A DNA stretch of 64,000 nucleotides. Source: Runella sp. SP2 (GTDB lineage Bacteria > Bacteroidota > Bacteroidia > Cytophagales > Spirosomataceae). The notes under the pieces were generated by a model, which was not told the DNA's origin, made no database searches, and saw only the letters and a list, made by a program, of their open reading frames with translations. Made by a program: the position numbers and the translations under genes. Position 1 is the first letter of the stretch. Every line of letters begins with the position of its first letter. Shown here in pieces: positions 1-33,900 of the stretch. Where the stretch lies: NCBI RefSeq assembly GCF_003711225.1, contig NZ_CP031030.1, positions 2,542,001 to 2,606,000 of the forward strand, read 5' to 3'.

Positions 1-314
1 AAACGGTCGGCTTCTGCCGCGGTGTGTTTGATGAGTTCCAGCCATTCGGGTGTCATAAACTTGACTTTTTTCTCAACGGTTTGTCCACCACCAATCGACA
101 CATCAAACGCTTGAAAACCACCAATACCAACGCGCTGCATCCATTCGAGGTCTTTGGTGATGCCTTCTCTGGTCACATTGCTCCCCACCCAATGCCACCA
201 TACAACAGGTTTGGCCGATTTGGGGGGATTTTGAAAGTTTTTTTGCAAAGTAGTTTGTGCCATACTCCCGAAAGTAGCTACAACCAATACCACGAATAGA
301 AGTGTTTTTTTCAT
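1..314 (-). CDS. GH106-like alpha-L-rhamnosidase/glycosyl hydrolase, N-terminal part only
   Basis: The gene runs leftward off the window edge, so only about 104 N-terminal codons are visible. The start ATG at 314 gives a signal peptide (MKKTLLFVVLVVATFGSMAQ) with cleavage near residue 20. It is followed by VVWWHWVGSNVTREGITKDL, then EWMQRVGIGGFQAFD. This W-W-H-W, 'T-x-E-G-I-x-x-D-L-E-W-M' and 'G-I-G-G' pattern is typical of GH106-type rhamnosidases of Bacteroidota, which are exported and act on L-rhamnose-containing glycans. The catalytic part is outside the window, so activity cannot be judged. Its promoter matches that of the GH78 gene starting at 9635, which supports a rhamnoside-related role. 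Confidence 0.75.
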   Translation of the reverse strand, partial: MKKTLLFVVLVVATFGSMAQTTLQKNFQNPPKSAKPVVWWHWVGSNVTREGITKDLEWMQRVGIGGFQAFDVSIGGGQTVEKKVKFMTPEWLELIKHTAAEADR

Positions 315-375: not shown

Positions 376-432
376 CAAAAATAAATCCATTAAGTACTAT
401 CTCTATCCTACACCTACCTGCTATTGTCTCAA
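376..432 (-). promoter_or_regulatory. Promoter and upstream element of the GH106-like gene
   Basis: Read on the minus strand, this is TTGAGACAATA (432-422), 12 bases, AGGATA (409-404), 20 bases, then TATTTTTG (383-376), which fits the Bacteroidota -7 box TAnnTTTG. The 5' UTR would be roughly 55 nt. The same three blocks with identical spacings lie upstream of the GH78 gene (9683-9739). AGGATA sits where the -33 box would be, so an activator-dependent promoter is likely. Confidence 0.6.
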
Positions 433-558
433 ATAGAGAAAATAAAAGACTTTTGCCATTTTGCTTGAGGATGTTATTTTTTATTTAAGCGATCGGCGGC
501 ATATCTACCAAATTTGTTCGGTATTGGAGGTCATTTTCTTTGCTTTTTCAGTATCCTA

Positions 559-6017: not shown

Positions 6018-9000
6018 TTACTCTTTCACCTCAAAAACATAACTTCCTGATGTTAAAGGAAGTACCACTTCTCCATTTTCCAACTTTGCCCCTTTCCATT
6101 GCGCAATAGGTTTGCCGCTTTCGGTGATTTGGGTAAGGCTTTTGGCAGGAAGATGCAATATCGCGGTCGTATTGGCAGGGACTGTGCATTTGTACGTAAA
6201 AGTGGTTGATTTGCTTTCCCATTCACTCGAAATGCGTCCGTACATCGTGTCCACGTAGCCTTTGGCAAAGGTAATGCGTTTGTCGGGGTCAGGAGTAGGC
6301 TTGAGTACAAACTCTTTGAAAGCGGCTTTGTCGGGATGGCGCTGAATTCCCAACGAATAATTGTACATCCACGAAGCCACCGCCCCGAAAGAATAGTGGT
6401 TGAAGGAGTTCATGCTGTTGTTTCCTCCAAAACCATTTTCAACGGTATAGCTGTTCAAACGCTCCCAAATCGACGTCGCACCATTGACCACCGAGTACAA
6501 CCACGACGGATAGTCTTTTTGCTGCACCAAACGATACGCTTGGGCATGATTTCCGTTGTCCGATAGCGCCTCCGATATGGAAGCAGTCCCGATAAAGCCC
6601 GTCATGAGCGAGTACGAGGGGCGTTCGATACCGCCATCGTCTTTGTTTTTACGCTCAATCGTTTCGTTTAAATACTTGATAGCAAACGGCTTATTTACTT
6701 CGTCAAACATTCCCAACGCCAAAGGAATGGCGTACGAGGCTTGGGTATCCATGAGCACGCCTTTATCTGATTTTGTTTCAGCCGCTTGCGGCCCTGGAGG
6801 CCCCATTCGAGCCGTTACCACCCCCGATTTGACAGTGCGGTGCGTATTTTTATCAACATAAACGTCATTAATGGTCTTTTTGATTTCTTGTTGACGTTTG
6901 GCAAACTGCGCCGCATCGTCGGTTTTACCCAAAATGGTCGCGACTTTGCTCATAATTTCCAAGTCGTAGGCAAAGTAGGACATCCAGAAAAGGGTGTTAT
7001 CATTTTTGTTGTTTTCGGGACTCAACCAGTCACCCAGCGGGCCTTCGTTCAAAATGCCGTTCGTTTTGTCCACCTTGGTTTCCAAGAAGTTGATGTACTT
7101 TTTCATGGCATCGTAATGCTCACGTAGTAGCTGATTATCACCGTATTGTCGATAAGTTTCCCAAGCCACAGTAATCCCCGCACTTCCCCACAACGTTCCA
7201 CCAAAACCACCACCTACGGGTGCGACGTCGGTAAAACGGCCATTTTCAGGCTGCATATCGCGCATAGCCAACAAATGACGCCTTAAAAATGGGTTGGCTT
7301 GTGCCAAATACGTCGCGCTTTTGGCAAATACCGAAATATCACCACTCCAACCCATCCGTTCGTTGCGGGCGGGGGTGTCGGTCGGTATCGACAAGAAGTT
7401 ACTCCGCAACGACCAAGTAATGTTTTGCCAAAGTTTGTTCACCAGTTCGTTGGAAGTGGCGAAACTCGACGACAAATCCATGACTGAACTAATCACCAAG
7501 CCTTTTACATCGCTCACAGGAATGGCTTGGTCGATGCCCGTAATTTCTAAATAGCGGTAGCCGTGGAAGGTAAAACGCGGCTGAATGACTTCGTCGCCCC
7601 CCTTCAAAATGTACAAATCTTGGGTCAACGCCGCCCGAATGTTTTCCATCATCACCATGCCTTCATTGCCTTTATAATCGGGCAAATTGGGGTATTTCAT
7701 TTCGGCAAAACGCAGGGTAATGGCTTGACCTTTTCGGCCATTTTTAATGGTGATTTGGGGTACACCCACCATGTTTTGCGTCATGTCATAGACAAATACC
7801 TTGGGGCGCACTTCCTCCACGCTTTTGGCGGTAAGGGTTTTGACAATCGTGGCATTTTCACCCATTTGCCCAACAAGCTTAAAATCATCGTATTCCAGCG
7901 ACGATTTCCGCCCCAAAGCATCGGTAACGGTGCCCTTAAACGCAGTTCCATCCAAGGGTATAACCACTGCCGATTTCCAAGCAGCGTCATTGTAGTCCGC
8001 CGTCGCCCAGCCATTGACGGCTGCTTCTTTGTTGGCATCATATACTTCGCCCTGAAAAAACGACCCGTACCGAATGGGACCATCGCTAAAAAACTTCCAT
8101 TCGGTAGGATTTGACGTTACCACTTGCTCTGAACCATCGGCGTAGGTAATGACCAATTTGCTCAACAACGACTGACGGTCACCGAAGAAATTCCAGTTTT
8201 CGCCGCTGTAAGTAATGTTTCCACTCCACCAACCTTCACTCAACCACGCTCCAAGGGCATTTTTCTGGCCAGATTTTATACCAGAGGTAACATCGTACGT
8301 TTGGTACATGTGGGTTTTGTTGTACTGCGTAAGACCTGGGTTAAAATAATCGTTAGAGACGCGGCTACCGTTGAGAAACAGTTCGTAAATCCCACGGGCA
8401 GTGGCGTACAAACGTGCCTTAGCGATGGATTTCGACTGAGTGGTAAAAGTCGTCCGAAGCATGGGAGCCGCATTTCGGCTAGGGTCGGCCGTGACTAAGC
8501 CGCCACTTACTGCGTAGCTTCCGTTCTCCACTTTTACATTTGAAGCCGAAAAAATCCCCGAATACGGCTGTTTTTGAAGGTTTTCGGTAAAAATTGGATT
8601 GGATGGATAACGATAATTCCGAACCGTTACGCCCGAAAAAAAGGCTTTTTGTCCGTTAGGAACGCGAAAACCAATGTCGGCTAACATCGGGAAACTGATG
8701 TAGTTATTTCCACTTCCAACGGGGTTTAAGTTGTACCCCCGAGCACCAAAACGACCTCCACCGCCTGCGGGTGCTACTTTATCTTTCAGCTTGTTAGCAT
8801 CTTTGTTGCCGTCCACGTAAAATTCAAACAATCCAAAATTACATTCTACCAACAATTGATGCTTTTCGTATTTATTGGCCGCATTTATCAACGATTGCGG
8901 AATGTCAAAACTTTTCAATGGGACGTCTTCTTTATCGTCTTTGGTATAACCAACACGATAAATATTCAGTTTGGCGAGACCGTCCGCAGCGTCGCTAACG

Positions 9001-9635
9001 TTGGAAATATCTAACTCCAAGGCCACATAACTCTCGTTTTTGCCTTTGGTTACCCCCATCAGGTTCAAGTCTTTGGTCATTAAACGGCGGTCGTTGGCAC
9101 CAAACACAAAAGAAGCTTTGGTAGCATTGCTGGTTTTATCGAGCTGAACCCCATACTCAAATTTAAACACCGATAAATAGTGCGAATACAACACCATATC
9201 GTCATCGCCTCCCCCAATCCAGTTAGCTCCTGACCATGCCGCAATCGAAGGGTTCATCAAGCCCGTTTCAAACCACGAACTACTTGTAATCGGTTTGCCC
9301 GTATTGTCCCAAACGGTCAATTTCCACTGATAACGCGTCGTAGGTTGGAGGCCACTTCCTGCGTATTCGATGCCATGCGAAAGCGACGAATTTACCTTTT
9401 TGGTATCCCAAACTACTTGATTTTTAGCGTTGGAAACCACAATTTGGTAGGCAGTTTGGCTGTAACCTCGTTTTGCGTCCAAGGCTTTCATTTGCCAAGA
9501 AAACTGCGGAATGGGAGTGTCAATTCCTAACGGTGTGGCTTGATAGTTGACTTGTAATTGGTTAAGCGCGACGTTAGCCCACACCCTTGCTCCCCACAAA
9601 AACAAGATACAAGCAGTAAAAAATAGTCTTTTCAT
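6018..9635 (-). CDS. GH78 alpha-L-rhamnosidase, secreted
   Basis: The ATG at 9635 is preferred over one 33 bases upstream because it starts a signal peptide (MKRLFFTACILFLWGARVWA). The 1205-aa product has the bacterial alpha-L-rhamnosidase layout: N-terminal Ig-like domain, an inserted lectin-like stretch (~150-350), beta-sandwich domains (YRYLEITG), then the (alpha/alpha)6 catalytic domain with DTPARNERMGWSGD near residues 750-763, GPLGDWLSP near 865, and a C-terminal beta domain. It is longer than the usual ~900-1100 aa because of the N-terminal insertion. It should release terminal L-rhamnose from glycans or glycosides. Its promoter has the same architecture as that of the GH106-like gene. 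Confidence 0.92.
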   Translation of the reverse strand: MKRLFFTACILFLWGARVWANVALNQLQVNYQATPLGIDTPIPQFSWQMKALDAKRGYSQTAYQIVVSNAKNQVVWDTKKVNSSLSHGIEYAGSGLQPTTRYQWKLTVWDNTGKPITSSSWFETGLMNPSIAAWSGANWIGGGDDDMVLYSHYLSVFKFEYGVQLDKTSNATKASFVFGANDRRLMTKDLNLMGVTKGKNESYVALELDISNVSDAADGLAKLNIYRVGYTKDDKEDVPLKSFDIPQSLINAANKYEKHQLLVECNFGLFEFYVDGNKDANKLKDKVAPAGGGGRFGARGYNLNPVGSGNNYISFPMLADIGFRVPNGQKAFFSGVTVRNYRYPSNPIFTENLQKQPYSGIFSASNVKVENGSYAVSGGLVTADPSRNAAPMLRTTFTTQSKSIAKARLYATARGIYELFLNGSRVSNDYFNPGLTQYNKTHMYQTYDVTSGIKSGQKNALGAWLSEGWWSGNITYSGENWNFFGDRQSLLSKLVITYADGSEQVVTSNPTEWKFFSDGPIRYGSFFQGEVYDANKEAAVNGWATADYNDAAWKSAVVIPLDGTAFKGTVTDALGRKSSLEYDDFKLVGQMGENATIVKTLTAKSVEEVRPKVFVYDMTQNMVGVPQITIKNGRKGQAITLRFAEMKYPNLPDYKGNEGMVMMENIRAALTQDLYILKGGDEVIQPRFTFHGYRYLEITGIDQAIPVSDVKGLVISSVMDLSSSFATSNELVNKLWQNITWSLRSNFLSIPTDTPARNERMGWSGDISVFAKSATYLAQANPFLRRHLLAMRDMQPENGRFTDVAPVGGGFGGTLWGSAGITVAWETYRQYGDNQLLREHYDAMKKYINFLETKVDKTNGILNEGPLGDWLSPENNKNDNTLFWMSYFAYDLEIMSKVATILGKTDDAAQFAKRQQEIKKTINDVYVDKNTHRTVKSGVVTARMGPPGPQAAETKSDKGVLMDTQASYAIPLALGMFDEVNKPFAIKYLNETIERKNKDDGGIERPSYSLMTGFIGTASISEALSDNGNHAQAYRLVQQKDYPSWLYSVVNGATSIWERLNSYTVENGFGGNNSMNSFNHYSFGAVASWMYNYSLGIQRHPDKAAFKEFVLKPTPDPDKRITFAKGYVDTMYGRISSEWESKSTTFTYKCTVPANTTAILHLPAKSLTQITESGKPIAQWKGAKLENGEVVLPLTSGSYVFEVKE

Positions 9636-9682
9636 TTTTGAACTTTGGTTTAGATATGCCTTTGACATTTCTTTTAATTGTT

Positions 9683-9739
9683 CAAAAATATATTGACATT
9701 ATACCGCCTGTATCCTGTGCTTTCCCGTTATTGTCTCAA
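9683..9739 (-). promoter_or_regulatory. Promoter and upstream element of the GH78 gene
   Basis: Read on the minus strand, this is TTGAGACAATA (9739-9729), 12 bases, AGGATA (9716-9711), 20 bases, TATTTTTG (9690-9683), with a leader of about 40 nt to the ATG at 9635. All three blocks and both spacings are identical to those at 376-432. Confidence 0.6.
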
Positions 9740-9762
9740 CTTGATGCAATAATTAATAATTA

Positions 9763-10170: not shown

Positions 10171-10238
10171 GGCTACATGTGTTTAAAGAGTTAAATGATT
10201 GATTTAAAGCAATGTTCCGCAAATATCTGAACAGGTTT

Positions 10239-10246
10239 TATATTTG
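10239..10246 (+). promoter_or_regulatory. -7 promoter box for the LysR gene
   Basis: TATATTTG matches TAnnTTTG and lies 50 bases before the ATG at 10296. A TTG -33 box is not evident. Confidence 0.4.
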
Positions 10247-10295
10247 CAAAACGCTATTTTTCGATACAAACCATCGAAAAAAACGATTTAGAAAA

Positions 10296-11162
10296 ATGGA
10301 ATTAAGACAACTGAAGTATTTTTTAAAAGCCAAGGAGCTCTTGAACTTTACGGAGGCGGCAAAGGCATTAAATATTAGCCAAAGCACCCTTTCCCAGCAA
10401 ATCAAACAATTGGAAGATGAGTTAAACGTGCCTTTGTTTAACCGTATCGGCAAACGCATCACGCTCACTGAAGCAGGAGATTTGTTTGGAGAGTATGCGT
10501 TGCAGAGCATAAATAGAGCGAATGAAGGATTATTGCTCTTGCAAGATTTGAAAAACCTGAACACGGGAAAAATTACCGTCGGCGTGATTTATTCCATGCG
10601 GATTCTTTTTGCCAAAACCTTGATACAGTTTGCCCAGCAGTACCCAAATATCAAGATCCAAGTGGTGTTCGGCACCACCAAAGACCTGCTCGATAAGCTC
10701 AATTCGCACCAATTTGATTTTGTCTTGATTTTCCACGAAAAGCCCAACGAGCCACACCTCAAATACCAGCCTATTTTGACCTCTAATATGGTATTGGTTA
10801 CTGCTAAGAAATCATCGTTGGCCTCCAAAAAAACAATCTCTCTTCATGAAGTAGCAACCCTTCCTTTGGCACTCCCTTTCAGCGGCTACAGTACGATCCA
10901 GTTTTTTGAAGAAGTGTTCAGCCAAAAAAAATTAGAACCCAACATCTGCATGGAAATCAACGACATACCTACGTTGTTTGAAATTGTAAAAACGGGGTTT
11001 TGGCACACCATCTTGAGTGATACCAGCGTCAATGACCCAGAAGTAGTAGGCATCCCCATCGAAGGTGAAAACATGAAACGAACGATTATGATTATTTCAC
11101 TCAAAGAAGCCTACGAGAAGCAGGCGGTAAAAAAGCTGTATGAGTTGTTGCGGGGGATTTGA
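10296..11162 (+). CDS. LysR-family transcriptional regulator
   Basis: The start at 10296 gives the canonical LysR N-terminus MELRQLKYFLKAKELLNFTE; an upstream extension of 28 residues has no family support. Residues 1-60 form the winged helix (AAKALNISQSTLSQQIKQLE), and ~90-288 form the periplasmic-binding-protein-like effector domain (ITVGVIYSMRILFAKTLIQF). Length 288 aa is typical. LysR proteins usually control a divergent neighbour, here the EthD gene at 10170, and respond to a small aromatic or organic acid. The effector is unknown. Confidence 0.88.
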   Translation: MELRQLKYFLKAKELLNFTEAAKALNISQSTLSQQIKQLEDELNVPLFNRIGKRITLTEAGDLFGEYALQSINRANEGLLLLQDLKNLNTGKITVGVIYSMRILFAKTLIQFAQQYPNIKIQVVFGTTKDLLDKLNSHQFDFVLIFHEKPNEPHLKYQPILTSNMVLVTAKKSSLASKKTISLHEVATLPLALPFSGYSTIQFFEEVFSQKKLEPNICMEINDIPTLFEIVKTGFWHTILSDTSVNDPEVVGIPIEGENMKRTIMIISLKEAYEKQAVKKLYELLRGI

Positions 11163-18739: not shown

Positions 18740-19519
18740 TTAATTCCCATCGCTAATGGTTGTACCTCCGTCAACGATGATATTTTGCCCCGTTATGAAG
18801 CCCCCAGCATTAGACGCTAGCATCACCACTACCCCTGCTATCTCTTCAGGCGTCCCTACCCGTCGCAGGGGAGTCAGTGCCAAACGACGTTCCATAAACG
18901 CTTTGTTTTGCATCAACGATTGTGAAAAAGGAGTATCAATCATTCCTGGCGAAATGGCATTGGCTCGGATATTGTAGGGGCCATATTCTACGGCAATGTT
19001 TCTAACCATTTGAACCAGTGCGGCTTTCGACATTCCGTAAAGTCCAATGGATTTGTTGCCTCGAACGCTCGCAATACTTGCTAAATAAATTAATACACCA
19101 TCGCACCTTTTTACCATCGATGGGAGCAACAATTGGGTTAAATAAAGGGCATTTTGAACATTAATTTTCATAACATCCTCAAAATGTGTCGTTTCAATTG
19201 TACCCGACGAACCCACGGGCGCAACGCCTACCCCACTCACCAATACGTCAATTCGCTCGTACTTTTCAAGTACTTTTTGGGCGAGATGTTCTATTTCTTC
19301 TTTACGTGACATATCGCAGGGAAGGGCCATTGCCTCCACATTAGCCACCGACAATTCGGCCACTACTTCTTCACACGCGCCAGCATCTTTGCTCGATACA
19401 ATTACCACCGCACCTTGCGCCCCCATCGCTAATGCAATAGCCTTCCCCATACCCGAAGAAGCCCCTGTAACCAACACCACTTTGCCATCTAGCCTAAATA
19501 ACTGTTGCATCTTGCTCAT
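18740..19519 (-). CDS. SDR-family NAD(P)-dependent oxidoreductase
   Basis: This 259-aa classical SDR has the cofactor motif VTGASSGMGKA (residues ~17-27), a D-M-S base-contact region, the catalytic Ser in YLASIASVRG, the Y-x-x-x-K of YGMSKAALVQM, and a C-terminal IITGQ/VDGG stretch (FITGQNIIVDGGTTISDGN). Its substrate is probably a hydroxyl or keto group on a small molecule. The cupin gene ends 8 bases upstream, so the two form an operon. It may be the intact relative of the SDR remnant at 17988. The exact substrate is unknown. Confidence 0.88.
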   Translation of the reverse strand: MSKMQQLFRLDGKVVLVTGASSGMGKAIALAMGAQGAVVIVSSKDAGACEEVVAELSVANVEAMALPCDMSRKEEIEHLAQKVLEKYERIDVLVSGVGVAPVGSSGTIETTHFEDVMKINVQNALYLTQLLLPSMVKRCDGVLIYLASIASVRGNKSIGLYGMSKAALVQMVRNIAVEYGPYNIRANAISPGMIDTPFSQSLMQNKAFMERRLALTPLRRVGTPEEIAGVVVMLASNAGGFITGQNIIVDGGTTISDGN

Positions 19520-19527
19520 TTAGAGGG

Positions 19528-20019
19528 CTAATCATGAATCATACATTCTTCCAAAGCCATTCCATTCACTTCAAACGATTTTGCTTCAATGAGCACAAAT
19601 ACGATACGGCAAATTTGGTCATCGGAGGGATTTCTCCATTTATGAATCGTTCCACGTTGTACGATGATTCCGCCCGCTTCTACCGTTTTGAAAACGCCAT
19701 TATCAAGTTCGAGTTCTATCGAACCACTAATTACAATACCGTAGTCGATACTATTGGAACGATGAAATGGGGATGAAGCATTAGGCAACATATCCACGAT
19801 ACGAATGACCGAGCCACCATTGAGCGTCGTACCCGCATCTCGTTGACGGCCATCGGTTTCATCGTTACAGTCAGCAGGAACAGTGGCTGTTGTCCAAATA
19901 GTGGTCATAGCGGCATCCCCCGAGGGGATAACGACCGTTTCAAAGGAAGTATCAGACATAAAAATAGCCGTACCGTCATCGGTATGGCCTGTCACTATAC
20001 GTCGAATGGAATTAGTCAT
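19528..20019 (-). CDS. Cupin-domain protein
   Basis: This 163-aa protein has no signal peptide. The C-terminal two-thirds are a cupin barrel: SSPFHRSNSIDYGIVISGSI, then VEAGGIIVQRGTIHKWRNPS, with the His/Glu-type metal ligands partly altered (H-R-S-N-S-I-D-Y). Cupins of this 'G-x-V-x-Q-R-G-T-x-H-x-W' type accompany oxidoreductases in aromatic or sugar metabolism. It is translated just before the SDR gene (8-bp gap), and a -7 box lies 32 bases before its ATG. Function otherwise unknown. Confidence 0.85.
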   Translation of the reverse strand: MTNSIRRIVTGHTDDGTAIFMSDTSFETVVIPSGDAAMTTIWTTATVPADCNDETDGRQRDAGTTLNGGSVIRIVDMLPNASSPFHRSNSIDYGIVISGSIELELDNGVFKTVEAGGIIVQRGTIHKWRNPSDDQICRIVFVLIEAKSFEVNGMALEECMIHD

Positions 20020-20050
20020 ATATTTTGTAAAAAAATAAGTTAATTTCTCA

Positions 20051-20058
20051 CAAAAGTA
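20051..20058 (-). promoter_or_regulatory. -7 promoter box for the cupin-SDR operon
   Basis: On the minus strand this is TACTTTTG, matching TAnnTTTG, with a leader of about 25 nt to the ATG at 20019. The -33 region is not convincing. Confidence 0.4.
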
Positions 20059-20144
20059 TATTTCTTTCTTGGGAAGGTACTATACAAAAAACGGCAGAAT
20101 ATTGACAAAATCAGGCAATATCGCTTGCCAAATTTTGAATTTTT

Positions 20145-20180
20145 AAGCGTTGAGTAAGACTTTCTCTCTACTCAACGCTT
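20145..20180 (-). terminator. Terminator of the ThuA gene
   Basis: AAGCGTTGAGTA and its perfect complement (12-bp stem, 12-base loop) lie just past the stop at 20194. On the minus strand the stem is followed by TTAAAAATTC. Confidence 0.75.
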
Positions 20181-20193
20181 TTATCAGCGCGTA

Positions 20194-21171
20194 TTACTCC
20201 ACAAACTTACGCTGGCTCACCGCTGTTTCCGTAGGGAAATCGGCAGGAATTGGAATATCAACTTTGCCCGTTGCCGCCCACTGTGCTCCGCGCTGAAGAG
20301 AAATAATAAAGCCTACGCACTCTACCGAATAATCAACGTGCCCAAGTGGCGTGTGGAAAATGCGGCCTTTGCCTTGTTTGATGGTCATCAGCATGGGTTC
20401 GTGGCGGTCGGTGCCGCGATTGTCTTTCGGAGAAAAAGCCGTGGCCAGTACCTCCATATTTTCGGCAGGCCCACGCAAGCGGTCGTACATTTCGTCTTTG
20501 GAGTGCATCCAATTCAGCGGCATTCCCTTCGTAATGGGGTGTTTTGAATTGCGCACCGTAATCAAAAACTCCTTTTGCGCCCCGTGTGAGCCCGCCCGTC
20601 CTGGACTGGTGTCTCTCACTAACTTGCCCTCTTTGTCGTAATATACAAATGGGCCGTCTTTTTCAGTGCGGTCGCCCCAACCTCCCAAACCAATCATGCG
20701 GTTATAGGCAGGCCACATCGGAAACGAGTTATCAGCAGCATGAACCACCACTAGACCACCGCCATTATTGATGTATTTTTCAAAATCAGCTTGCGTACCG
20801 TCCGACCAAGGGGCAGCGTTCCAACCAAAATTACAGATAACGACATCGTACTTGAAAAAATCGGGATGATAGGCCGAATCCATCTTGGGTTTGGGCAACG
20901 ATTGCGTCGCAGGAAGACCTTTGATTGGGTACTTTGCTTCCAAATCTCCTCCGTTCCAAGTATAGTAGGTACGCTGTACGTCCACGGTAAATTTACCCGT
21001 TTCCTCCAAGTAACGCTTCATCATGTAGGTGATTTTAGGCCATTGTTCGTGGTTGTTTTGTCCGTCAATGATGAGTGCCTTTAACACTTTTTTTGAGGGA
21101 TTAGCGACCGAATCATGACTAGCATAGATGCCTATCACAAGCGTAAGGAGCAAAAGACTGAGTTTCTTCAT
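20194..21171 (-). CDS. Exported ThuA-domain protein
   Basis: This 325-aa protein has a signal peptide (MKKLSLLLLTLVIGIYASHD). The rest is a ThuA domain, a class-I glutamine amidotransferase-like fold: ALIIDGQNNHEQWPKITYMM, YDVVICNFGWNAAPW, GGGLVVVHAADNSFP and GRIFHTPLGH. ThuA proteins are linked to trehalose and other sugar utilisation; whether they are enzymes or sugar-binding proteins is unsettled. The protein is probably periplasmic. It stands alone, with its own terminator, opposite the DUF6958-like gene. Confidence 0.88.
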   Translation of the reverse strand: MKKLSLLLLTLVIGIYASHDSVANPSKKVLKALIIDGQNNHEQWPKITYMMKRYLEETGKFTVDVQRTYYTWNGGDLEAKYPIKGLPATQSLPKPKMDSAYHPDFFKYDVVICNFGWNAAPWSDGTQADFEKYINNGGGLVVVHAADNSFPMWPAYNRMIGLGGWGDRTEKDGPFVYYDKEGKLVRDTSPGRAGSHGAQKEFLITVRNSKHPITKGMPLNWMHSKDEMYDRLRGPAENMEVLATAFSPKDNRGTDRHEPMLMTIKQGKGRIFHTPLGHVDYSVECVGFIISLQRGAQWAATGKVDIPIPADFPTETAVSQRKFVE

Positions 21172-21267
21172 TGGTTTTTCTGGGGTTTAAAGTACATTTT
21201 ACCTTTAGGTAGGTAAAGCAAAAAATACCTGCTTCCTATCTATTGTTTTGGGATTGATTTTTGAAAC

Positions 21268-21322
21268 CCTCCCGAAAGTTTCTTTCAAACCTTCCCGAAA
21301 GTTTTAGAACTTTCGGGAAGGT
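21268..21322. repeat. Perfect 15-bp inverted repeat with a partial third copy
   Basis: ACCTTCCCGAAAGTT (21289-21303) and its exact complement (21308-21322) flank a 4-base loop, TTAG. A further copy of CCTCCCGAAAGTTTC lies at about 21268-21281. The element sits between two divergent genes (starts 21171 and 21357), so it is not a terminator of either. It may be an operator or a mobile palindromic repeat. Confidence 0.7.
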
Positions 21323-21356
21323 GATGTAATTCCCCATAAACTAATTTCCAAAACCC

Positions 21357-21653
21357 ATGAAAGAAGAAACCATTCAAACGCTTCATCCAAAAGAAGGGAA
21401 GGTCAACAAGAAAATATCATTAGAAAAATACAACTTCATCCGAAAAAACTTGCTGCAAATTTTGGAGAAAGATGAGCTTACCCACACCGAACTCATGGAA
21501 AAATTGTACGAAAAGATAAAAGATGATTTTGTGGGTGGCGTGCAATGGTACGGCGAAACAGTTAAACTTGACCTAGAAGCCAGAAGCATCATTTTCAGAA
21601 CGAAGTCAAAGCCTGAAAAATATACATTGAAAGGAGAAGAGCAAGCACAATGA
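21357..21653 (+). CDS. DUF6958-like small protein
   Basis: This 98-aa cytoplasmic protein has a basic/helical N-terminus (ETIQTLHPKEGKVNKKISLE) and a winged-helix-like body with DELTHTELMEKLYEKIKDDF and WYGETVKLDLEARSIIFRTK. The T-H-x-E-L and W-Y-x-E-T-V-K-L-D-L-E-A-R signatures match the small proteins classed as DUF6958, as I recall the family. A helix-turn-helix-like fold is possible, but no function is known. It ends just before the terminator at 21655-21684 and converges on kdgD. Confidence 0.7.
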   Translation: MKEETIQTLHPKEGKVNKKISLEKYNFIRKNLLQILEKDELTHTELMEKLYEKIKDDFVGGVQWYGETVKLDLEARSIIFRTKSKPEKYTLKGEEQAQ

Positions 21654-21654
21654 A

Positions 21655-21684
21655 AAAGAGGCGATTATCACTAATCGCCTCTTT
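21655..21684. terminator. Bidirectional terminator between convergent genes
   Basis: AAAGAGGCGATTA and its perfect 13-base complement flank a 4-base loop, with T-rich sequence on both outer sides. It serves the genes ending at 21653 (+) and 21692 (-). Confidence 0.85.
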
Positions 21685-21691
21685 TATTTTT

Positions 21692-22597
21692 CTAGCTATT
21701 GGCTTTTATAATTTGTTCAAGTTCAGCATAGTCGGCATCAGTTGGCATCGACAACGGTGGGCGAACATCGCCTGCGCTTTTACCAATTATTTTTGCCCCT
21801 GCTTTAATCAAACTGACCGCATAGCCGTTTTTCTTGCTCCGCAAACGTACCAACGGAATGTAAAAACTCTTAGTGATTTCGGCCACCGTTTCGGTATCGC
21901 CCGCGCGGAGGCTGTGGTAAAATTTATTGGCCAATTCAGGCACAAAATTGAACGCCGCCGACGAATACGTATTGACTCCAATCGACAAATAGGCTTCGGC
22001 AATAATCTCGGCCGTAGGCACTCCCCCGATGTACGACAAGCGCTTTCCGACGGTTTTGATGGTGTCGTTCAGGTCTTGCATGTTGCCCGTACCGTCCTTT
22101 AATCCTATAAAATTGGGGCAGGCATCCGCTAGTTTTTGAATGTACTGCGTTGATAAAATACCATTGCCACGGTTGTAATAAATGACGGGCAACGTGGTAT
22201 TTTGAATAATCGTTTTGGCATACTCAAACACCCCATCTTGCGGGCATTCGGTCAGGTAGGGAGGGAAAAGCAACAGTGCATTGATACCTGCTTTTTCGGC
22301 CATTTTTGCAAAGGCAATGGCTTCAGGAATGCTACGCCCCACGCTCGAAATGACGGGTACGCGTTCGGCTACAACCTTCGCCGAAAGGTTGACAATCTGC
22401 TCGTATTCTGCCGCCGAAAGCGAGAAAAACTCCCCTGTTCCCCCTGCTACAAACACCGACGAAACATCGTGGCTCACAAACCATTCGAGGCGTTCGGCGT
22501 AGGTTTCGGCGTTAAATTCTCCATTTTCGTCAAAATCAGTAATTGGAAACGAAAGAAGCCCGTCTTCGAGCGATGATTTTATTTTTGAAAGTTCCAT
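21692..22597 (-). CDS. kdgD: 5-dehydro-4-deoxyglucarate dehydratase
   Basis: This 301-aa DapA/NAL-superfamily TIM barrel has AGGTGEFFSL near residue 51, the VIYYNRGNG segment with Tyr 140/141, and the Schiff-base Lys 167 in FIGLKDGTGN. Length and the K-D-G-T-G-N signature fit KdgD (EC 4.2.1.41), which dehydrates and decarboxylates 5-dehydro-4-deoxy-D-glucarate to 2,5-dioxopentanoate. gudD lies directly upstream on the same strand (21-bp gap), and garD is nearby; both make the KdgD substrate. The downstream dehydrogenase to 2-oxoglutarate is not in the window. Confidence 0.92.
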   Translation of the reverse strand: MELSKIKSSLEDGLLSFPITDFDENGEFNAETYAERLEWFVSHDVSSVFVAGGTGEFFSLSAAEYEQIVNLSAKVVAERVPVISSVGRSIPEAIAFAKMAEKAGINALLLFPPYLTECPQDGVFEYAKTIIQNTTLPVIYYNRGNGILSTQYIQKLADACPNFIGLKDGTGNMQDLNDTIKTVGKRLSYIGGVPTAEIIAEAYLSIGVNTYSSAAFNFVPELANKFYHSLRAGDTETVAEITKSFYIPLVRLRSKKNGYAVSLIKAGAKIIGKSAGDVRPPLSMPTDADYAELEQIIKANS

Positions 22598-22618
22598 GTT
22601 TTTTTAGTGATGAGTGAT

Positions 22619-23932
22619 TTACCAACGTGTTGCCATAAATTTCCAGCCTGATACTACTTTTTGCATTTCGATTTCGTCGTCGCGTTTGGTCAGGCCGCAT
22701 TTTAAGTAGTTTTCGTGCAATTTGGCCAAGGCCGCTTTGTCCAACTCTACACCCAAACCTGGGCCTTCGGGAACGGCAACGGCGCCTTCTTCAAATTTCA
22801 AACGGCCGCCCACCACGATTTCGTCCGACTGCCACGGGTAGTGGGTATCGAGAGCGTAACGTAGGTTAGGAATAGCCGCTCCCAAGTGCACCATCGCCGC
22901 CAACGAAATCCCCAAATGCGAGTTGGAGTGCATCGACAAATCACGCCCAAAGGTTTCGCAAACGCTGGTGAGTTTCATAGATTCTTGCAAGCCACCCCAA
23001 AAATGGTGGTCGCTCAAAATAATGTCCTCCGAACCTAACTCAATCGCCTTGGGAATATCACCAAACGAAGTTGTACACATATTGGTTGCCAACGGTGTTT
23101 TGAGCGCTTTCCGAACCATCGCCATATTTTGCTGGCCACGGCAGGGGTCTTCCAAGTACTCAAGCACCCCCTCCATTTCTTTGCCGTACTGGATGGAGGT
23201 TTCTACCGTCCAGAGAGCATTGGGGTCTAAACGCAAAGGGACATCGGGGCCAAAAGCTTTGTGCAAGGCCAAAATAGCATCCACTTCTTGGCGCGGCTCA
23301 AATACGCCCCCTTTGAGCTTAATCGACTTAAAACCAAACGCTTTGCACATGGCATGTGCTTGGGCAACAATCTCTTCGGGGTTGAGCGCACTCGCCTGAC
23401 GAGCCGCCGCCCAGCCCGTGGCATTGGGGTCGGTTCCAAACTCAAGTTTGCCCCCTGCTCCTTCGTATTTATAAAACAAATAAGCCGAAAACGGCACTGC
23501 ATCGCGCCGACGCCCGCCTAACAAATCGACGACGGGGCGGTTGATGATTTTACCAATAATGTCCAAACACGCTACTTCAATGGAGCTAAACACGTGCACA
23601 ACCGTACGTTGGTCCCAAGGGGTAAACCCACGGTCGGCAGGTTTTTCAGTGCCAAATTCGGCTTGAAGAATGTCCTTGATTTTATTGAGTTGGAACGGGT
23701 CTTGGCCAATGATTAGGCGTTTGCTTCGCTCCAGTGCCTTGTCGATGTCGATATTGCCAGGGATTTCACTGATTCCTACGATGTTATCGTCGGTGATAAG
23801 TTCCACCACCGTACGCAGCGCATAAGGCGCGTGAAGCCCCGCCGCATTGAGCAAAGGCGGGTCCACCACCGCGATGGGTGTAATGTTAAATTCTTTAATT
23901 CGTGGTCCTTGGGAGGGAAGGCTGATTGACAT
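22619..23932 (-). CDS. gudD: Glucarate dehydratase
   Basis: This 437-aa enolase-superfamily enzyme is close to the 446 aa of E. coli GudD. Markers are SIKLKGGVFEPRQEVDAI (catalytic Lys), RLDPNALWTVE and LEDPCRGQQ (metal ligands), LSDHHFWGG and SMHSNSHLGISLA (catalytic His). It removes water from D-glucarate to give 5-dehydro-4-deoxy-D-glucarate, the substrate of KdgD encoded immediately downstream. A hairpin at 23953-24020 separates it from the mannonate-dehydratase-like gene. The substrate could include L-idarate, as in other GudD enzymes. Confidence 0.93.
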   Translation of the reverse strand: MSISLPSQGPRIKEFNITPIAVVDPPLLNAAGLHAPYALRTVVELITDDNIVGISEIPGNIDIDKALERSKRLIIGQDPFQLNKIKDILQAEFGTEKPADRGFTPWDQRTVVHVFSSIEVACLDIIGKIINRPVVDLLGGRRRDAVPFSAYLFYKYEGAGGKLEFGTDPNATGWAAARQASALNPEEIVAQAHAMCKAFGFKSIKLKGGVFEPRQEVDAILALHKAFGPDVPLRLDPNALWTVETSIQYGKEMEGVLEYLEDPCRGQQNMAMVRKALKTPLATNMCTTSFGDIPKAIELGSEDIILSDHHFWGGLQESMKLTSVCETFGRDLSMHSNSHLGISLAAMVHLGAAIPNLRYALDTHYPWQSDEIVVGGRLKFEEGAVAVPEGPGLGVELDKAALAKLHENYLKCGLTKRDDEIEMQKVVSGWKFMATRW

Positions 23933-23952
23933 AAAAAGTTGAATAAATTGGT

Positions 23953-24020
23953 AAAGACGTAAGATTGATTAAAACGAATTACTTTTTAAAAGCGCTTCTT
24001 GTGCCCAATCTTACGTCTTT
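23953..24020 (-). terminator. Hairpin between the mannonate-dehydratase-like gene and gudD
   Basis: AAAGACGTAAGATTG (23953-23967) is exactly complementary to 24006-24020, with a 38-base loop. It follows the stop of the upstream gene (24045) and may terminate or attenuate read-through into gudD-kdgD. Confidence 0.6.
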
Positions 24021-24044
24021 GGGGTCTTTTTTTTATCAATGATA

Positions 24045-25163
24045 TTAGGCCGTTTCGCTGGCAACTACTTGCAACAAACCTTTGATGTAACCGTAACAAA
24101 ACGCAAAGGCTTCTTGAGTACTGTTAGCTGCATGGTGGTGCGGTACGTGGTCGGGCATAACCATCCCCGAATACCCCACGTCGCGTAATGCCCTAACGAC
24201 CTTAACAAAATCCATGTCCCCGTTGTCGGGATAGACTTCTTGGAAATTATTGAAACTGCCTTTGATGTTTCTTAGGTGAACGTTAAAAATCTGATTGCGC
24301 TCCCCTACCCATTTGATGATGGGAAAAATTTCATTTTTGGGGTCTTTTAATCCCTCAGCAATGGAGCCAATGCAAAAGTTAAAGCCATGGTATTCACTGT
24401 CGTACAATTTGGCAAAACGTTGAATTCCTTTAAATACATCGGGGCTGTTCCAACGCATCACGCCACGGTAAGCCGCTGGCACTGGCGGGTCGGCGATATG
24501 GTTCGCGAGTTTGACTTTGTACTCTTTGGCCACGGGAAGTAATCGGTCGAGCAAATACGTAATTCGTTCAAAAATTTGGTCGATTGATACATCTCCTGCC
24601 ACCGTTTTAGGGTCGTTACGTTTCAATGCTTCTTCGTAATTCCAAACGCTGTATTCAGCATTTCCGCGCTTGGGGTCGGTGTATTTTCCCGTCCGCAACA
24701 CGGGCAAAATGGTCGTATTGTAGTTCAATACTTTAATGCCCGATTTGCCCGCCACTTGAATCATTTGTTGTAAATACTCAATCTCACGGTCGCGTTCAGG
24801 GCTTTTCCCCAACATAATATTGGGGTAAATCACGCGGTCGATTCCCGCCGAACTCAAGGGATAATGGTACGCGTCCAAACTAATTCCGTACTTTTCGCAG
24901 GCTTCTTTTTTGGCCAACGAATCCTCCAAATCCCAGCCTTTACCTGGAATTACTTTTGGCGCACCGCCGTCGATATTAAAGATACCATGACGGGCCTTAA
25001 ATTCGAGATTTTCAACGCTCGTCCCGCCCGATTGGCAGCCTGCTTTCATCAATACTTTTTTGGGAGGCGTAACAAGCGACGCCGCATGGGCTTTTTCGGC
25101 ACCTGTCACCGAAGCACTTACCGACCCTACGGCAACTGCTTTGAGAAAATTACTACGTTTCAT
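24045..25163 (-). CDS. Exported mannonate-dehydratase-like TIM-barrel protein
   Basis: This 372-aa protein has an export signal (MKRSNFLKAVAVGSVSASVT…AHA), of weak Tat type (KR rather than RR). The body has UxuA-like features: KLANHIADPPVP, FNFCIGSIAEGL, FNVHLRNIKGSFNNFQE, GDMDFVKVVRALRDVGYSG and VMPDHVPHHH. UxuA makes 2-keto-3-deoxygluconate from D-mannonate in the cytoplasm, so an exported member is unusual and its substrate may differ. It is co-directional with the GntP permease (21-bp gap), which suggests it acts on a sugar acid related to what that permease carries. Confidence 0.8.
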   Translation of the reverse strand: MKRSNFLKAVAVGSVSASVTGAEKAHAASLVTPPKKVLMKAGCQSGGTSVENLEFKARHGIFNIDGGAPKVIPGKGWDLEDSLAKKEACEKYGISLDAYHYPLSSAGIDRVIYPNIMLGKSPERDREIEYLQQMIQVAGKSGIKVLNYNTTILPVLRTGKYTDPKRGNAEYSVWNYEEALKRNDPKTVAGDVSIDQIFERITYLLDRLLPVAKEYKVKLANHIADPPVPAAYRGVMRWNSPDVFKGIQRFAKLYDSEYHGFNFCIGSIAEGLKDPKNEIFPIIKWVGERNQIFNVHLRNIKGSFNNFQEVYPDNGDMDFVKVVRALRDVGYSGMVMPDHVPHHHAANSTQEAFAFCYGYIKGLLQVVASETA

Positions 25164-25184
25164 CTTATTTTAAACGGTTATTTT

Positions 25185-26615
25185 TTATACCAATGGAAAC
25201 AAAGCCGCTCCAATCATAATGACAATCAAACCCGTCAGCCCCATCACTACCAACAAGGGCGAAATGGTTTTGAGGGCTTCTTTTTCCGTAAGATTGCTCA
25301 ATTTACAGATAATCCAAAAACCAGCATCATTCATCCAAGGCACTAATTTTGAGCCACATCCAATCGCTAACCCTAAATAAACAGGGTGAAATGACAGGTT
25401 GGCGTTGCTGGCCATTCCTGACAAAATACCCGAGGCTGTAATCAACGCCACCGTAGCTGAACCTTGGGCAGTGCGCACCACGGCCGCAATAAAAAATGCC
25501 ATTGGAATAAGTGCCATTTGGTATTCTTTGGTCATATCAGCAATGCGGCCACTGATGCCCGTTTGCTGCAACATTCCCCCAAACGCACCACCCGCCGCCG
25601 TAATCAAAATAATCCCTCCGCCACTCATCAAGGCCGACTGTACAAAAGGTGTTAATCCGTCTTTTTTAGCGTCCTTTTTCTGACTTGCCAACACCCACAA
25701 CGCAATGAAACCTCCCGTGAGAATGGCAATGTTTTTATCGCCAAAAAATTTCACAATTGCCACCAAGGTGGTAGAGACTTCACTTGCTTTAAAAAAGGCG
25801 CTAAAAGCAGTATCGAGACAAATAAAAAACAAAGGAACAGCTACAGGCAGCAACGAAACACCCAACGAAGGGAGCTGTTTGGTTTCCTTGGCCGCAATCG
25901 ACTTCATGTCTTCCAGTTTCGCATCCAGCGAGTCGCGGAGTTCAATTGGCCATTTTTTATTGGCCCAAAGGGCAAAAAAGTAACCCGAGGTAATGGTAAA
26001 AAGCCCCACAATTACGCCCGTCACCATCATCAAGCCCATCGGAATGTGCATTTCGCCAATCAGGAACAACGGTCCAGGCGCAGGGGGCACCAGCGAATTG
26101 GCCATTGCCGCCCCCGCCATGATACACAACACCAACAAAAGGTAATTTTTACCAATGCGGAGGGTCATGGCTTTGGCAAGAGGTACCATCAAAAATAAAA
26201 CGGTATCAAAAAAAACGGGGATTCCGAGGAAAAAACTGCTTAGTAGAAAGGCAATCGGGGCTTTTTCAATGCCTGTCAATCGAAGTATCGACCGAATGAT
26301 GCGCTCGGCCGCGCCACTTTCTAGCATACATTTCCCAATAATGGCGGCCATTGCTATCAGAATGCCAATTTTGGCGCAGGTATTTCCAAACTCGGTAGCA
26401 ATGCGCTCACCCACGCTCTTTTTGGCCATCGCCAAGGCCGCAGCGGGGGCCGTGCCTTTGGACAAAGCGTATTGCTCAATGACTTCGGGGGGTGTCAACA
26501 TCGCAACGGCAAGAGCACCTAACAACAGTGCCAAAAATGGATGTAGCTTGACGCCAATGATTCCACCCACCACAATCAATACGCCCACCGACAAAATAAA
26601 TAAGGGATCAGACAT
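25185..26615 (-). CDS. GntP-family gluconate/sugar-acid:H+ symporter (copy 1)
   Basis: This 476-aa membrane protein has about 12-14 hydrophobic segments and GntP-family blocks: GVKLHPFLALLLGALAVAML, EFGNTCAKIGILIAMAAIIG, VPPAPGPLFLIGEM and TAQGSATVALITASG. It should import gluconate or a related sugar acid with protons. It is strongly similar along its length to the permease at 35531, so the two are paralogues. It heads a co-directional group with the mannonate-dehydratase-like gene and gudD-kdgD, which suggests glucarate- or hexuronate-derived substrates. Confidence 0.9.
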   Translation of the reverse strand: MSDPLFILSVGVLIVVGGIIGVKLHPFLALLLGALAVAMLTPPEVIEQYALSKGTAPAAALAMAKKSVGERIATEFGNTCAKIGILIAMAAIIGKCMLESGAAERIIRSILRLTGIEKAPIAFLLSSFFLGIPVFFDTVLFLMVPLAKAMTLRIGKNYLLLVLCIMAGAAMANSLVPPAPGPLFLIGEMHIPMGLMMVTGVIVGLFTITSGYFFALWANKKWPIELRDSLDAKLEDMKSIAAKETKQLPSLGVSLLPVAVPLFFICLDTAFSAFFKASEVSTTLVAIVKFFGDKNIAILTGGFIALWVLASQKKDAKKDGLTPFVQSALMSGGGIILITAAGGAFGGMLQQTGISGRIADMTKEYQMALIPMAFFIAAVVRTAQGSATVALITASGILSGMASNANLSFHPVYLGLAIGCGSKLVPWMNDAGFWIICKLSNLTEKEALKTISPLLVVMGLTGLIVIMIGAALFPLV

Positions 26616-26676
26616 TCAGGGTTTTAGGTTTAGGTTTTTCAATTTTTCCAAGCTTGGCAAGTCTTGCTATTAAATA

Positions 26677-26777
26677 TTCAACCTCACCCCACCCTCTCCC
26701 TTCTGGAGAGGGCTTTAAATTCCCTTCTCCAGAAAGGACGGGGCCGCCCGAGCGGAAGGGTTAGGGATGAGGTTGAA
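26677..26777. repeat. Long imperfect palindromic intergenic element
   Basis: The ends TTCAACCTCAcCCC (from 26677) and GGGATGAGGTTGAA (to 26777) are complementary. Inner arms CCCTTCTGGAGAGGG and CCCTTCTCCAGAAAGG give further pairing. This resembles REP-type intergenic elements. It lies between the GntP gene start and the SusD gene end on the same strand and may separate the two transcripts. Confidence 0.65.
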
Positions 26778-26803
26778 CTTTGCAAGTAAAATCATAAAGA
26801 TTC

Positions 26804-28354
26804 TTATTTTTTATCCCACCAGATGCGGGTATCCAACAAGTTAGGACCTTGACGGTCGATGGCCTTTTGGACATTTACTTTATTGACATTCAACTCGGCA
26901 TCGGTGTAAGTCAAACGGCGAATAAATGGCTCCGTTTTAAGGTCTTTCCCAGGATACGTATTCGGTGTTAACACGGGGAAATCGCTTCTTCGGAAGTTTG
27001 CCCACGACTCAGGGCCATTCAGGAAGGTTGCCACCCAGTATTGCGTATTAATTTGCTCCAACTCTTTTCCAACGGCTAACGGATTCGCTTTCACGTACGT
27101 ATCTATCGCCGCGTCGGCAATAGCCGTATTTGCACCGTAACTCGCATATTGCTGCATGTTGGCCTTTATCCCGTTGGCATACAGTGTGGCGGCATCGCCC
27201 GTTGTCCATTTCCGATACACCGCCTCTGCCAACAACAGTTGGGTTTGGGCATAGGTCACCAAAAAGCTAGGCGCCGTTAAGCCGCCCATACGCGTACGAT
27301 CCAATTGACTATAATCCCACAAACTTGCCAGTTTTTTAGCGGCAACGGCGGTGCTTATTGTCGTGTTGTCGTAGCCTTGAGGAGCCCCAATCTGAACCGC
27401 AGACGTACGATTGGCCCGCGACTCCACCTGCTGGGCACCGCTGGTTGCACCCACGTAGCGCACCGCAATCGAGGCTAAGCGCGGGTCATTATTTTTATTC
27501 AAATACTCCACAAAATCTTCGGAAAGGTAAAAGAACGCCGACTGCCCCCCGTTGAGTTGTGAACCAATAGGATTGGTAAAACTCGCATTGTGACGAATGA
27601 TCGCATTGTCTGCGTTGGATTGCATCACCCCACCCGTCACGGCCTTCGCGACGTATTCTGCCGCTTTTGCTGGGTTTACCTTTGATAAACGCATGGCCGC
27701 TCTCAACAAAAGTGAATACCCCAATCGCTTCCATTTGGTGACGTCTCCATCGTACAACAAATCGGTAGTTGCTCTGGCTTTAGAGGCATCCAGAGCAGCC
27801 GAAGCACCGTCTAATTCACTCAGAATCGCCATATACACCGACTCTTGGGTGTCGTAAACAGGCGTTGAAATGCCTTCCAAATAATTTCGGCCTGCTTGAG
27901 TATAGGGAATATCGCCGTAGGTATCGGTCAAAATCATGAACGAATACGCCTGCCAAATCCGAATCATATTGTAGAGGTTCGAGCGCGCAGGGATATCTTT
28001 GGTTTTAGCTAGAGCATCTGTCAGTTCTTTGATGTTGGTTTGGTAATACGTATTCCAATTACCCGACGCTACCCCGCGATTGTCTTGGTTAAAATTCGCC
28101 GCCGACCCTTGCCCGCTAAAGGGCGTAATCATCTGCTTGACGATGGTCGTTTCGTAACTCAAGTTCCCGTAGGCAGGTGCCGTATTGACAATGGCCGTAT
28201 TGAGTTGATAGCCAGGGTCAACGGCCGTGAGGGCAATGGGGTTTACGTTCATTTCATCAAACCCTTTATCGCAGCCAACCAAGCCCCCCACTCCAACAAC
28301 GATTGTCGTCCAAAAAGGGAGCGAAAAAGCCAATTTTCTGATTATATTTTTCAT
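26804..28354 (-). CDS. SusD/RagB-family surface lipoprotein
   Basis: This 516-aa protein has a lipoprotein signal peptide with lipobox GLVGC (Cys 28) followed by DKGFDEMNVNP, as in the SusD-like_2 subfamily. The body has the tetratricopeptide-like helices and aromatic-rich loops of SusD proteins (NMIRIWQAYSFMILTDTYGD, PYTQAGRNY, LLLAEAVYRKW). It captures a substrate at the outer surface and caps the SusC pore encoded directly upstream (65-bp gap). The flanking aldarate genes suggest a sugar-acid-containing glycan or oligomer, but the ligand is not shown. Confidence 0.92.
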   Translation of the reverse strand: MKNIIRKLAFSLPFWTTIVVGVGGLVGCDKGFDEMNVNPIALTAVDPGYQLNTAIVNTAPAYGNLSYETTIVKQMITPFSGQGSAANFNQDNRGVASGNWNTYYQTNIKELTDALAKTKDIPARSNLYNMIRIWQAYSFMILTDTYGDIPYTQAGRNYLEGISTPVYDTQESVYMAILSELDGASAALDASKARATTDLLYDGDVTKWKRLGYSLLLRAAMRLSKVNPAKAAEYVAKAVTGGVMQSNADNAIIRHNASFTNPIGSQLNGGQSAFFYLSEDFVEYLNKNNDPRLASIAVRYVGATSGAQQVESRANRTSAVQIGAPQGYDNTTISTAVAAKKLASLWDYSQLDRTRMGGLTAPSFLVTYAQTQLLLAEAVYRKWTTGDAATLYANGIKANMQQYASYGANTAIADAAIDTYVKANPLAVGKELEQINTQYWVATFLNGPESWANFRRSDFPVLTPNTYPGKDLKTEPFIRRLTYTDAELNVNKVNVQKAIDRQGPNLLDTRIWWDKK

Positions 28355-28394
28355 TGTTTGTATCCTTTTATTGTTTCCCCGAAAGCTTAGGAAT

Positions 28395-28421
28395 AAGCCC
28401 CCATCGGGGGTTTGGGAGCTT
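28395..28421 (-). repeat. C-rich palindromic element, copy 1 of 4
   Basis: On the minus strand this reads AGCTCCCAAACCCCCGATGG and continues GGGCTT. It overlaps the SusC stop codon and forms a CCCCC/GGGGG hairpin in the SusC-SusD gap. Related copies are at 34760-34786, 35432-35458 and 35504-35529. Confidence 0.6.
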
Positions 28422-31980: not shown

Positions 31981-32001
31981 TATAACACAGGTTTGGGTCT
32001 A

Positions 32002-33003: not shown

Positions 33004-33047
33004 TGATGTATAAAAGATTGGGAACTCCACTTTCGCGAAGTTGTTGG

Positions 33048-33716: not shown

Positions 33717-33830
33717 CGTGCTATGGTGTACTTTCTCTAAAGACAAGTTCGCACGAATACTTCCTTACAAGAATTGAAAAATATTTTTATTTTTTTGAAT
33801 TTTATTTAGAATAGCGTGGGCTTATTTTGT

Positions 33831-33861
33831 AACCATATAAGAAATATAAGAGATTATAAGG
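33831..33861. repeat. Helically phased ATATAAG array
   Basis: ATATAAG at 33835-33841 and 33844-33850 and TTATAAG at 33854-33860 repeat every 9-10 bases in the gap downstream of garD. A similar array is at 47464-47498. The role is unknown. Confidence 0.6.
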
Positions 33862-33900
33862 CAAACCGTAAACCCAAAACAGGAAACAGAAAACCCAACA

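Follow-up and report, generated by a model that had tools for sequence, protein, structure and literature searches.

A composite promoter with a putative NrtR-type operator at rhamnosidase genes of Runella

We analyzed a 64,000-nucleotide stretch of the Runella sp. SP2 genome (NZ_CP031030.1, positions 2,542,001 to 2,606,000; hereafter the window), in which two alpha-L-rhamnosidase genes, one of family GH106 and one of family GH78, share a promoter arrangement. Judging from comparisons with related genomes, we think it likely that this arrangement is the composite regulated promoter of a small Runella rhamnoside regulon, in which a palindromic operator for a dimeric, AraR-like regulator of the NrtR family, most likely the paralogue NrtR-A, is joined to a downstream site that is most likely bound by a second protein, an activator. 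Sequence comparison establishes the target genes, the palindrome with its NrtR linkage, and a second element at a fixed position.

Results

The two window promoters share a unit that is neither random nor a copied segment

On the minus strand, positions 432–376 and 9739–9683 both read TTGAGACAATA-N12-AGGATA-N20-TATTTTTG. An initial annotation had described the blocks as identical and equally spaced, with differing sequence between them, and this holds: the blocks agree at all 25 of their positions and the two spacings are equal, while agreement extends to 20 of the 44 non-block positions of the 69-bp composite. The shared unit reaches 12 bp further upstream, as a palindrome (Table 1). When the window was searched for TTGAGACAATA-N12-AGGATA with up to 3 mismatches, two matches were found, both exact, compared to a mean of 0.14 in shuffled windows; none of 100 shuffled windows had as many as two. 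Across the 7.6 Mb genome, the same search gave 22 places (reversed control, 10). Only the window pair is exact, with 2 mismatches at one other place and 3 at 19, and for this reason the other 20 places look like background. Random occurrence throughout the genome, which would have spoken against a regulon, is thus not what we see. The 11-mer TTGAGACAATA alone is not unusual (25 matches with up to 2 mismatches versus 20.9 expected).

Identity between the two window copies is 45/69 inside the composite, 40/150 in the upstream flank and 25/81 in the downstream flank. Because the flanks are dissimilar, the shared unit is not a copied segment, in line with the earlier view that local duplication is not involved. 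Chance, or recent duplication of a promoter segment, would accord with there being just two exact places in the genome; given the shuffling result, the whole-genome counts, the unlike flanks and the presence of the unit in 10 of 13 Runella genomes, we regard its probability as negligible. Outside Runella, the strict pattern was found at three places, each with 3 mismatches and none with an open reading frame (ORF) of >100 codons starting 40–400 bases past the pattern's first base; these we attribute to chance.

Table 1. Promoter elements and rhamnosidase genes in the window
Feature	Position	Strand	Remarks
GH106 alpha-L-rhamnosidase gene start	3..314	minus	runs out of window, continues in L023
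GH78 alpha-L-rhamnosidase gene	6018..9635	minus	ORF open from 9668; ATG 9635 preferred
Putative NrtR-type 23-bp palindromic operator before GH106, TATTTTCTCTATTTGAGACAATA	422..444	minus	left arm degenerate; about -73 to -51
Putative NrtR-type 23-bp palindromic operator before GH78, TATTGCATCAAGTTGAGACAATA	9729..9751	minus	left arm degenerate
Second conserved element before GH106, CAGG-N6-tAGGAT-N7-GTACTTAA	390..420	minus	about -49 to -19
Second conserved element before GH78, CgGG-N6-CAGGAT-N7-GTATAATG	9697..9727	minus	
-7 box TATTTTTG (TAnnTTTG) of GH106	376..383	minus	predicted transcription start near 371
-7 box TATTTTTG (TAnnTTTG) of GH78	9683..9690	minus	predicted transcription start near 9678

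For GH78, we preferred the start in Table 1 over that of the longest ORF because it fits the predicted transcription start.

The palindrome accompanies NrtR genes across genera

The 11-base block TTGAGACAATA had been taken for a free-standing activator site. It forms instead the right arm of a 23-bp palindrome, TATTGTCTCAnnnTGAGACAATA, the mirror image preceding the block in related genomes. With up to 3 mismatches, the palindrome is present in all 13 Runella genomes, at 1–5 places each (reversed control in 1/13); the single places in genomes G011 and G012 differ in form. With up to 2 mismatches, it is found in 99 of 222 family genomes, Runella included, and in 22 of 36 genera, compared to one genome for the control. 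Among 30 non-Runella loci that we opened, 26 have the palindrome within ~450 bp upstream of an NrtR-family gene. Approached from the protein side, using NrtR-R (one of the paralogues described below), a palindrome with up to 2 mismatches to TATTGTC-N9-GACAATA lies within 350 bp upstream at 37 of 56 R-type loci; the remaining 1,039,466 bases contain 11 places of the same pattern. Because it sits upstream of NrtR genes across genera, the palindrome is most likely an NrtR-type operator, rather than a sigma-factor or LysR site. The site had been ascribed to a so far unnamed activator or sigma factor; its position upstream of NrtR genes allows the family to be named (NrtR, related to Nudix proteins).

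At L095:8535-8557 (G005), a palindrome, TATTGTCTCAACCAGAGACAACA, lies near a transporter-like gene, without the second element. At L202:2148-9885 (G064), an R-type NrtR gene and palindrome are divergent to GSDH-like and GH106 genes.

A second element lies at a fixed distance from the -7 box

Aligning 21 promoters (10 GH78, 10 operon and 1 GH106) gave the layout palindrome - n - CaGGnnnGTaCAGGATA - N6 - GTAtAAAA - N6 - TAnnTTTG, a unit of ~70 bp in which palindrome, CAGGnnnGTaCAGGAT, GTATAAAA and TAnnTTTG follow one another in this order. Six of the operon promoters have the palindrome closer by 1 bp (N11 versus N12), with the remaining spacing unchanged. By eye, the CAGG repeats of the second element are 10 bp apart, and the site upstream of them is the palindrome. 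The available text of PMC9723704 places the -7 box at -12 to -5 and gives TAnnTTTG as the box of the primary sigma factor. Numbered accordingly, the palindrome spans -73 to -51, CAGG begins at -49, CAGGAT covers -39 to -34 and GTATAAAA covers -26 to -19. The assignment of the last block to the Bacteroidota -7 box stands, TATTTTTG matching TAnnTTTG. The proposal that AGGATA replaces the -33 box is borne out in part: neither window promoter has a -33 TTTG at the usual distance from the -7 box, but AGGATA belongs to a larger element, CAGGnnnGTaCAGGAT-N7-GTATAAAA. The CAGG/AGGATA portion (about -49 to -34) occupies the place of the -33 box and is probably an activator site.

The downstream half alone occurs at exactly two places in each of 10 of the 13 Runella genomes, 20 in total, each at a GH78 or operon promoter (reversed control, 1). 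The GH106 copy in the window is too divergent for this pattern and has 3 mismatches to a longer one, which in 210 family genomes matched 17 places, 16 of them in Runella (control, 0). No places of the second element were found in Runella genomes G008, G011 and G012. The sole non-Runella place, CAGGATAGTACAGGATG at L221:1501-1545, stands before an ORF that by eye resembles an extracytoplasmic function (ECF) sigma factor and is probably due to chance.

The unit stands before rhamnosidase-family genes

The 10 Runella genomes with the composite unit carry it upstream of GH78 as well as upstream of an operon containing rhamnosidase-family genes; in the window's genome (G000), it also precedes GH106. 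The search of the genome and its relatives proposed in the initial annotation therefore returned Runella matches before rhamnosidase-family genes, which agrees with the regulon it had suggested and points to a small rhamnoside regulon common to most Runella genomes examined. Taking co-directional genes as one transcript, the operon in G000 and G002 runs Dabb, sugar-isomerase-like TIM barrel, GH106, esterase, GH78; in the other eight genomes, it has the esterase and a more distant GH78-type gene (Bac_rhamnosid6H, E = 1e-19 in L086). The operon GH106 gene is in line in 8 of the 10 genomes, and in G001 and G010 the contig stops before it. The esterase and GH78-type genes of G005 are separated by an ORF on the opposite strand.

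Genes for an FAA hydrolase, an FAD-binding monooxygenase-like protein, a cyclase, an SDR-like protein and an MFS transporter were seen upstream of the rhamnosidase operon (L082:14-8144 and L236:9450-19976). Their presence suggests catabolism of a rhamnosylated compound, or an oxidative rhamnose route.

NrtR paralogues differ in their operators

The window's genome (G000:C1) has nine NrtR_WHD places, and we compared six named paralogue groups (A, B, C, D, N and R). NUDIX, NrtR_WHD and AraR_C domains were found in A, C, R and D, the best solved relative being AraR of B. thetaiotaomicron (E = 8.4e-37 for R, 5.5e-34 for A). The Nudix catalytic box, given as GX5EX7REUXEEXGU in the part of PMC4666351 consulted, is degenerate: REUXEE is replaced by RGLKER in A and RILRER in R. 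A phylogenetic tree separates the groups, with B more weakly supported (91/78). Clade-specific palindromes precede the groups' own genes for A, C, R and, in 5 of 7 Runella genomes, B; D has a related palindrome upstream in 8 of 10 Runella genomes, and none clear was found for N. In the winged helix, R, C and N have FQK and A, B and D have FQR, a division that parallels inner TA versus inner CA in the clear operators.

Measured over 20 positions, operators differ from both window sites by 3 (A), 3–4 (B), 3–6 (C), 5 (R) and 5–9 (D); the A operator thus agrees with the window sites at 17 of the 20 fixed positions. NrtR-A (G000:C1:1,673,631-1,674,347 in the window's genome) is present in 9 of the 10 genomes with the composite promoter and in none of the three promoterless Runella genomes. 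From its operator and distribution, NrtR-A fits the window sites best and is most likely their regulator. Among the operon sites, those of G000 and G007 differ from the C operator at 1–2 positions (measured), and those of G002 and G003 are C-like by eye; among the ten promoter-bearing genomes, C is found only in these four. The operon in the four genomes would thus fit paralogue NrtR-C.

Eight promoter-bearing genomes have NrtR-R, and in 7 of these it lies within ~7 kb of the operon's GH106 or GH78 gene; in G000, it is convergent to the rhamnosidase operon. Rhamnosidase homologues occur at just 11 of 56 R-type loci (4/6 in Runella, 7/50 outside), so R is not a rhamnoside regulator by linkage alone; glucose/sorbosone-dehydrogenase-like matches are commoner there. 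R was our first candidate for the window sites and was rejected, since its own operator differs and orthologues (~70% identity or more) are absent from G002 and G007. NrtR-D was also rejected, its presence being perfect and its operator mismatched.

Discussion

Evidence against the proposed regulation

Several observations weigh against control of these promoters by NrtR proteins, and by NrtR-A in particular. The left palindrome arms in the window, TATTTTCTCTA and TATTGCATCAA, are both degenerate. An NrtR gene is absent at 4 of the 30 opened non-Runella loci (L171, L172, L173 and L194), and 19 of the 56 R-type loci have no palindrome within 350 bp. For the GH106 site taken alone, the closest A, B and C operators do equally well, each with 3 differences, and A is missing from promoter-bearing G009. 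No single paralogue accounts for everything: a C-like gene is also found in promoterless G008, R (whose own operator is TATTGTATAn5TATACAATA, unlike the window sites) is also found in promoterless G012, and D, with a differing operator, is present in 10/10 promoter-bearing and 0/3 promoterless genomes. Gene neighborhood gives a mixed picture: R and C are near the rhamnosidase operon, and A, the best operator match, is beside esterase genes. One caveat here is that the presence patterns (9/10, 10/10) are not independent samples, as the genomes are related and the three promoterless ones may share ancestry; furthermore, one perfect pattern among six paralogue groups is weaker than it appears. 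An operator near -62 is unusual for a simple repressor. Finally, among GH106 genes near GH78, only that of the window's genome carries the unit, and the one in G007 lacks it; this reflects either a gain in the window's lineage or loss elsewhere.

Alternative explanations

An NrtR-family protein could itself be the activator, contacting RNA polymerase from -62; CAGG/AGGATA would then only extend its footprint or form a modified core promoter. We regard this as a possibility, if a distinctly less probable one. In its favor, the promoter downstream of the operator has no -33 box, and the distance between them hardly varies (N12, with N11 in six of the operon promoters); in the neighborhoods listed, where most ORFs are unannotated, no other regulator gene was seen to be kept with both promoters. 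On the other hand, the downstream part keeps its spacing where the palindrome is displaced by 1 bp, suggesting that the two act as separate modules. In the available part of PMC4666351, moreover, several NrtR proteins are described as repressors, and AraR as having L-arabinose for a negative effector. A broader version, which we put forward equally tentatively, would make an NrtR protein the activator or its obligate partner at a composite promoter in which a CAGG direct repeat replaces the -33 box; an operator code of the Runella NrtR paralogues (inner TA with FQK, inner CA with FQR) might then split rhamnoside, esterase and oxidative sugar genes.

A dedicated sigma factor reading AGGATA-N20-TATTTTTG would explain the exact spacing and the missing -33 TTTG, and the window contains an ECF sigma gene with FecR adjoining (33048-33746). 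That gene, however, is 23 kb away and adjoins FecR and a TonB receptor, which are the usual partners of an ECF sigma gene. The -7 box TAnnTTTG is moreover that of the primary sigma factor, according to the text available from PMC9723704, so a special sigma factor is not needed, and we consider one improbable. For the LysR-type gene at 10212-11162, a near neighbor of GH78 in the window, in G002 and in G003, the palindrome would be the recognition site near -62 and AGGATA the activation site near -35. LysR promoters have a geometry resembling that in the window, which counts in favor of this idea. The palindrome, however, accompanies NrtR genes in other genera, and a role for the LysR-type protein strikes us as very unlikely. 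Of the 20 composite-promoter loci that we searched, 10 being GH78 loci, only three contain the gene, although the promoter is retained; this neighbor was therefore dropped as a candidate. At L053:13941-14030 (G007), a 34-residue match to the LysR gene adjoins the GH78 promoter and looks like the remnant of a decayed gene.

Proposed mechanism

We therefore return to an NrtR operator combined with a separate activator site, for which we infer the exact paralogue, the activator, the sign of regulation and the effector. When substrate is absent, NrtR would be bound at about -73 to -51, right beside the activator site (-49), and would hold the promoter off. A sugar derived from rhamnosides would loosen NrtR from its operator, and the activator, bound to the second element (CAGGnnnGTaCAGGAT-N7-GTATAAAA), could then recruit RNA polymerase to a promoter with a primary-sigma -7 box and no -33 box. 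Release of NrtR by a sugar in Runella is modeled on AraR, which in the portion of PMC4666351 consulted is freed from DNA by its sugar, L-arabinose.

Other features of the window include a sugar-acid cluster (18740-35484) with galactarate dehydratase (above cut-off), glucarate-dehydratase-like and UxuA-like proteins and an SDR. Genes for a TonB receptor, FecR and an ECF sigma factor (28420-33746) lie within the same region.

Significance and relation to known systems

If correct, this proposal turns an unexplained shared promoter into a named regulon, with a family, candidate genes, operators and targets. In Bacteroides, sugar control of the NrtR type has been described for arabinose and proposed for xylose; the Runella rhamnosidases would be an extension of it. 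The rigidly placed second element suggests dual control, which is not seen in the portions of the NrtR literature consulted here. Furthermore, the paralogue-specific operators over 13 Runella genomes form a data set on change of DNA specificity within the NrtR family.

The rhamnose regulators of bacteria belong to the AraC, DeoR and LacI families in the available part of PMC3870299, a text in which the words NrtR and Nudix have a count of zero; searching the literature for rhamnose together with NrtR or Nudix, we found no rhamnose-type NrtR regulator. In B. thetaiotaomicron, AraR and XylR are assigned to the NrtR family and RhaR to the AraC family (PMC3878776, in part). RhaR (BT3768) is comparable in that it controls rhamnose use in the Bacteroidota, again from the accessible parts of PMC3878776 and PMC3870299, but the Runella unit differs in having a palindrome tied to NrtR genes. 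The NrtR regulators of nicotinamide adenine dinucleotide (NAD) metabolism have the same domain make-up; as far as the consulted text of PMC4666351 goes, they sense ADP-ribose or NAD and control NAD genes, unlike the glycosidase targets in Runella. XylR (BT0791) is likewise an NrtR-family sugar regulator of the Bacteroidota, a likeness drawn from its description in part of PMC3878776, and differs in controlling xylose genes. AraR (BT0354), with its L-arabinose regulon, is alike in being a Nudix-like, winged-helix regulator with glycan-degrading targets, and its 21-bp semipalindromic motif is similar in length to the 23-bp Runella palindrome (PMC4666351, sections available). The Runella unit is unlike that of AraR in its operator sequence, in its rhamnosidase targets and in the placement of the operator, at about -62 beside a second fixed element.
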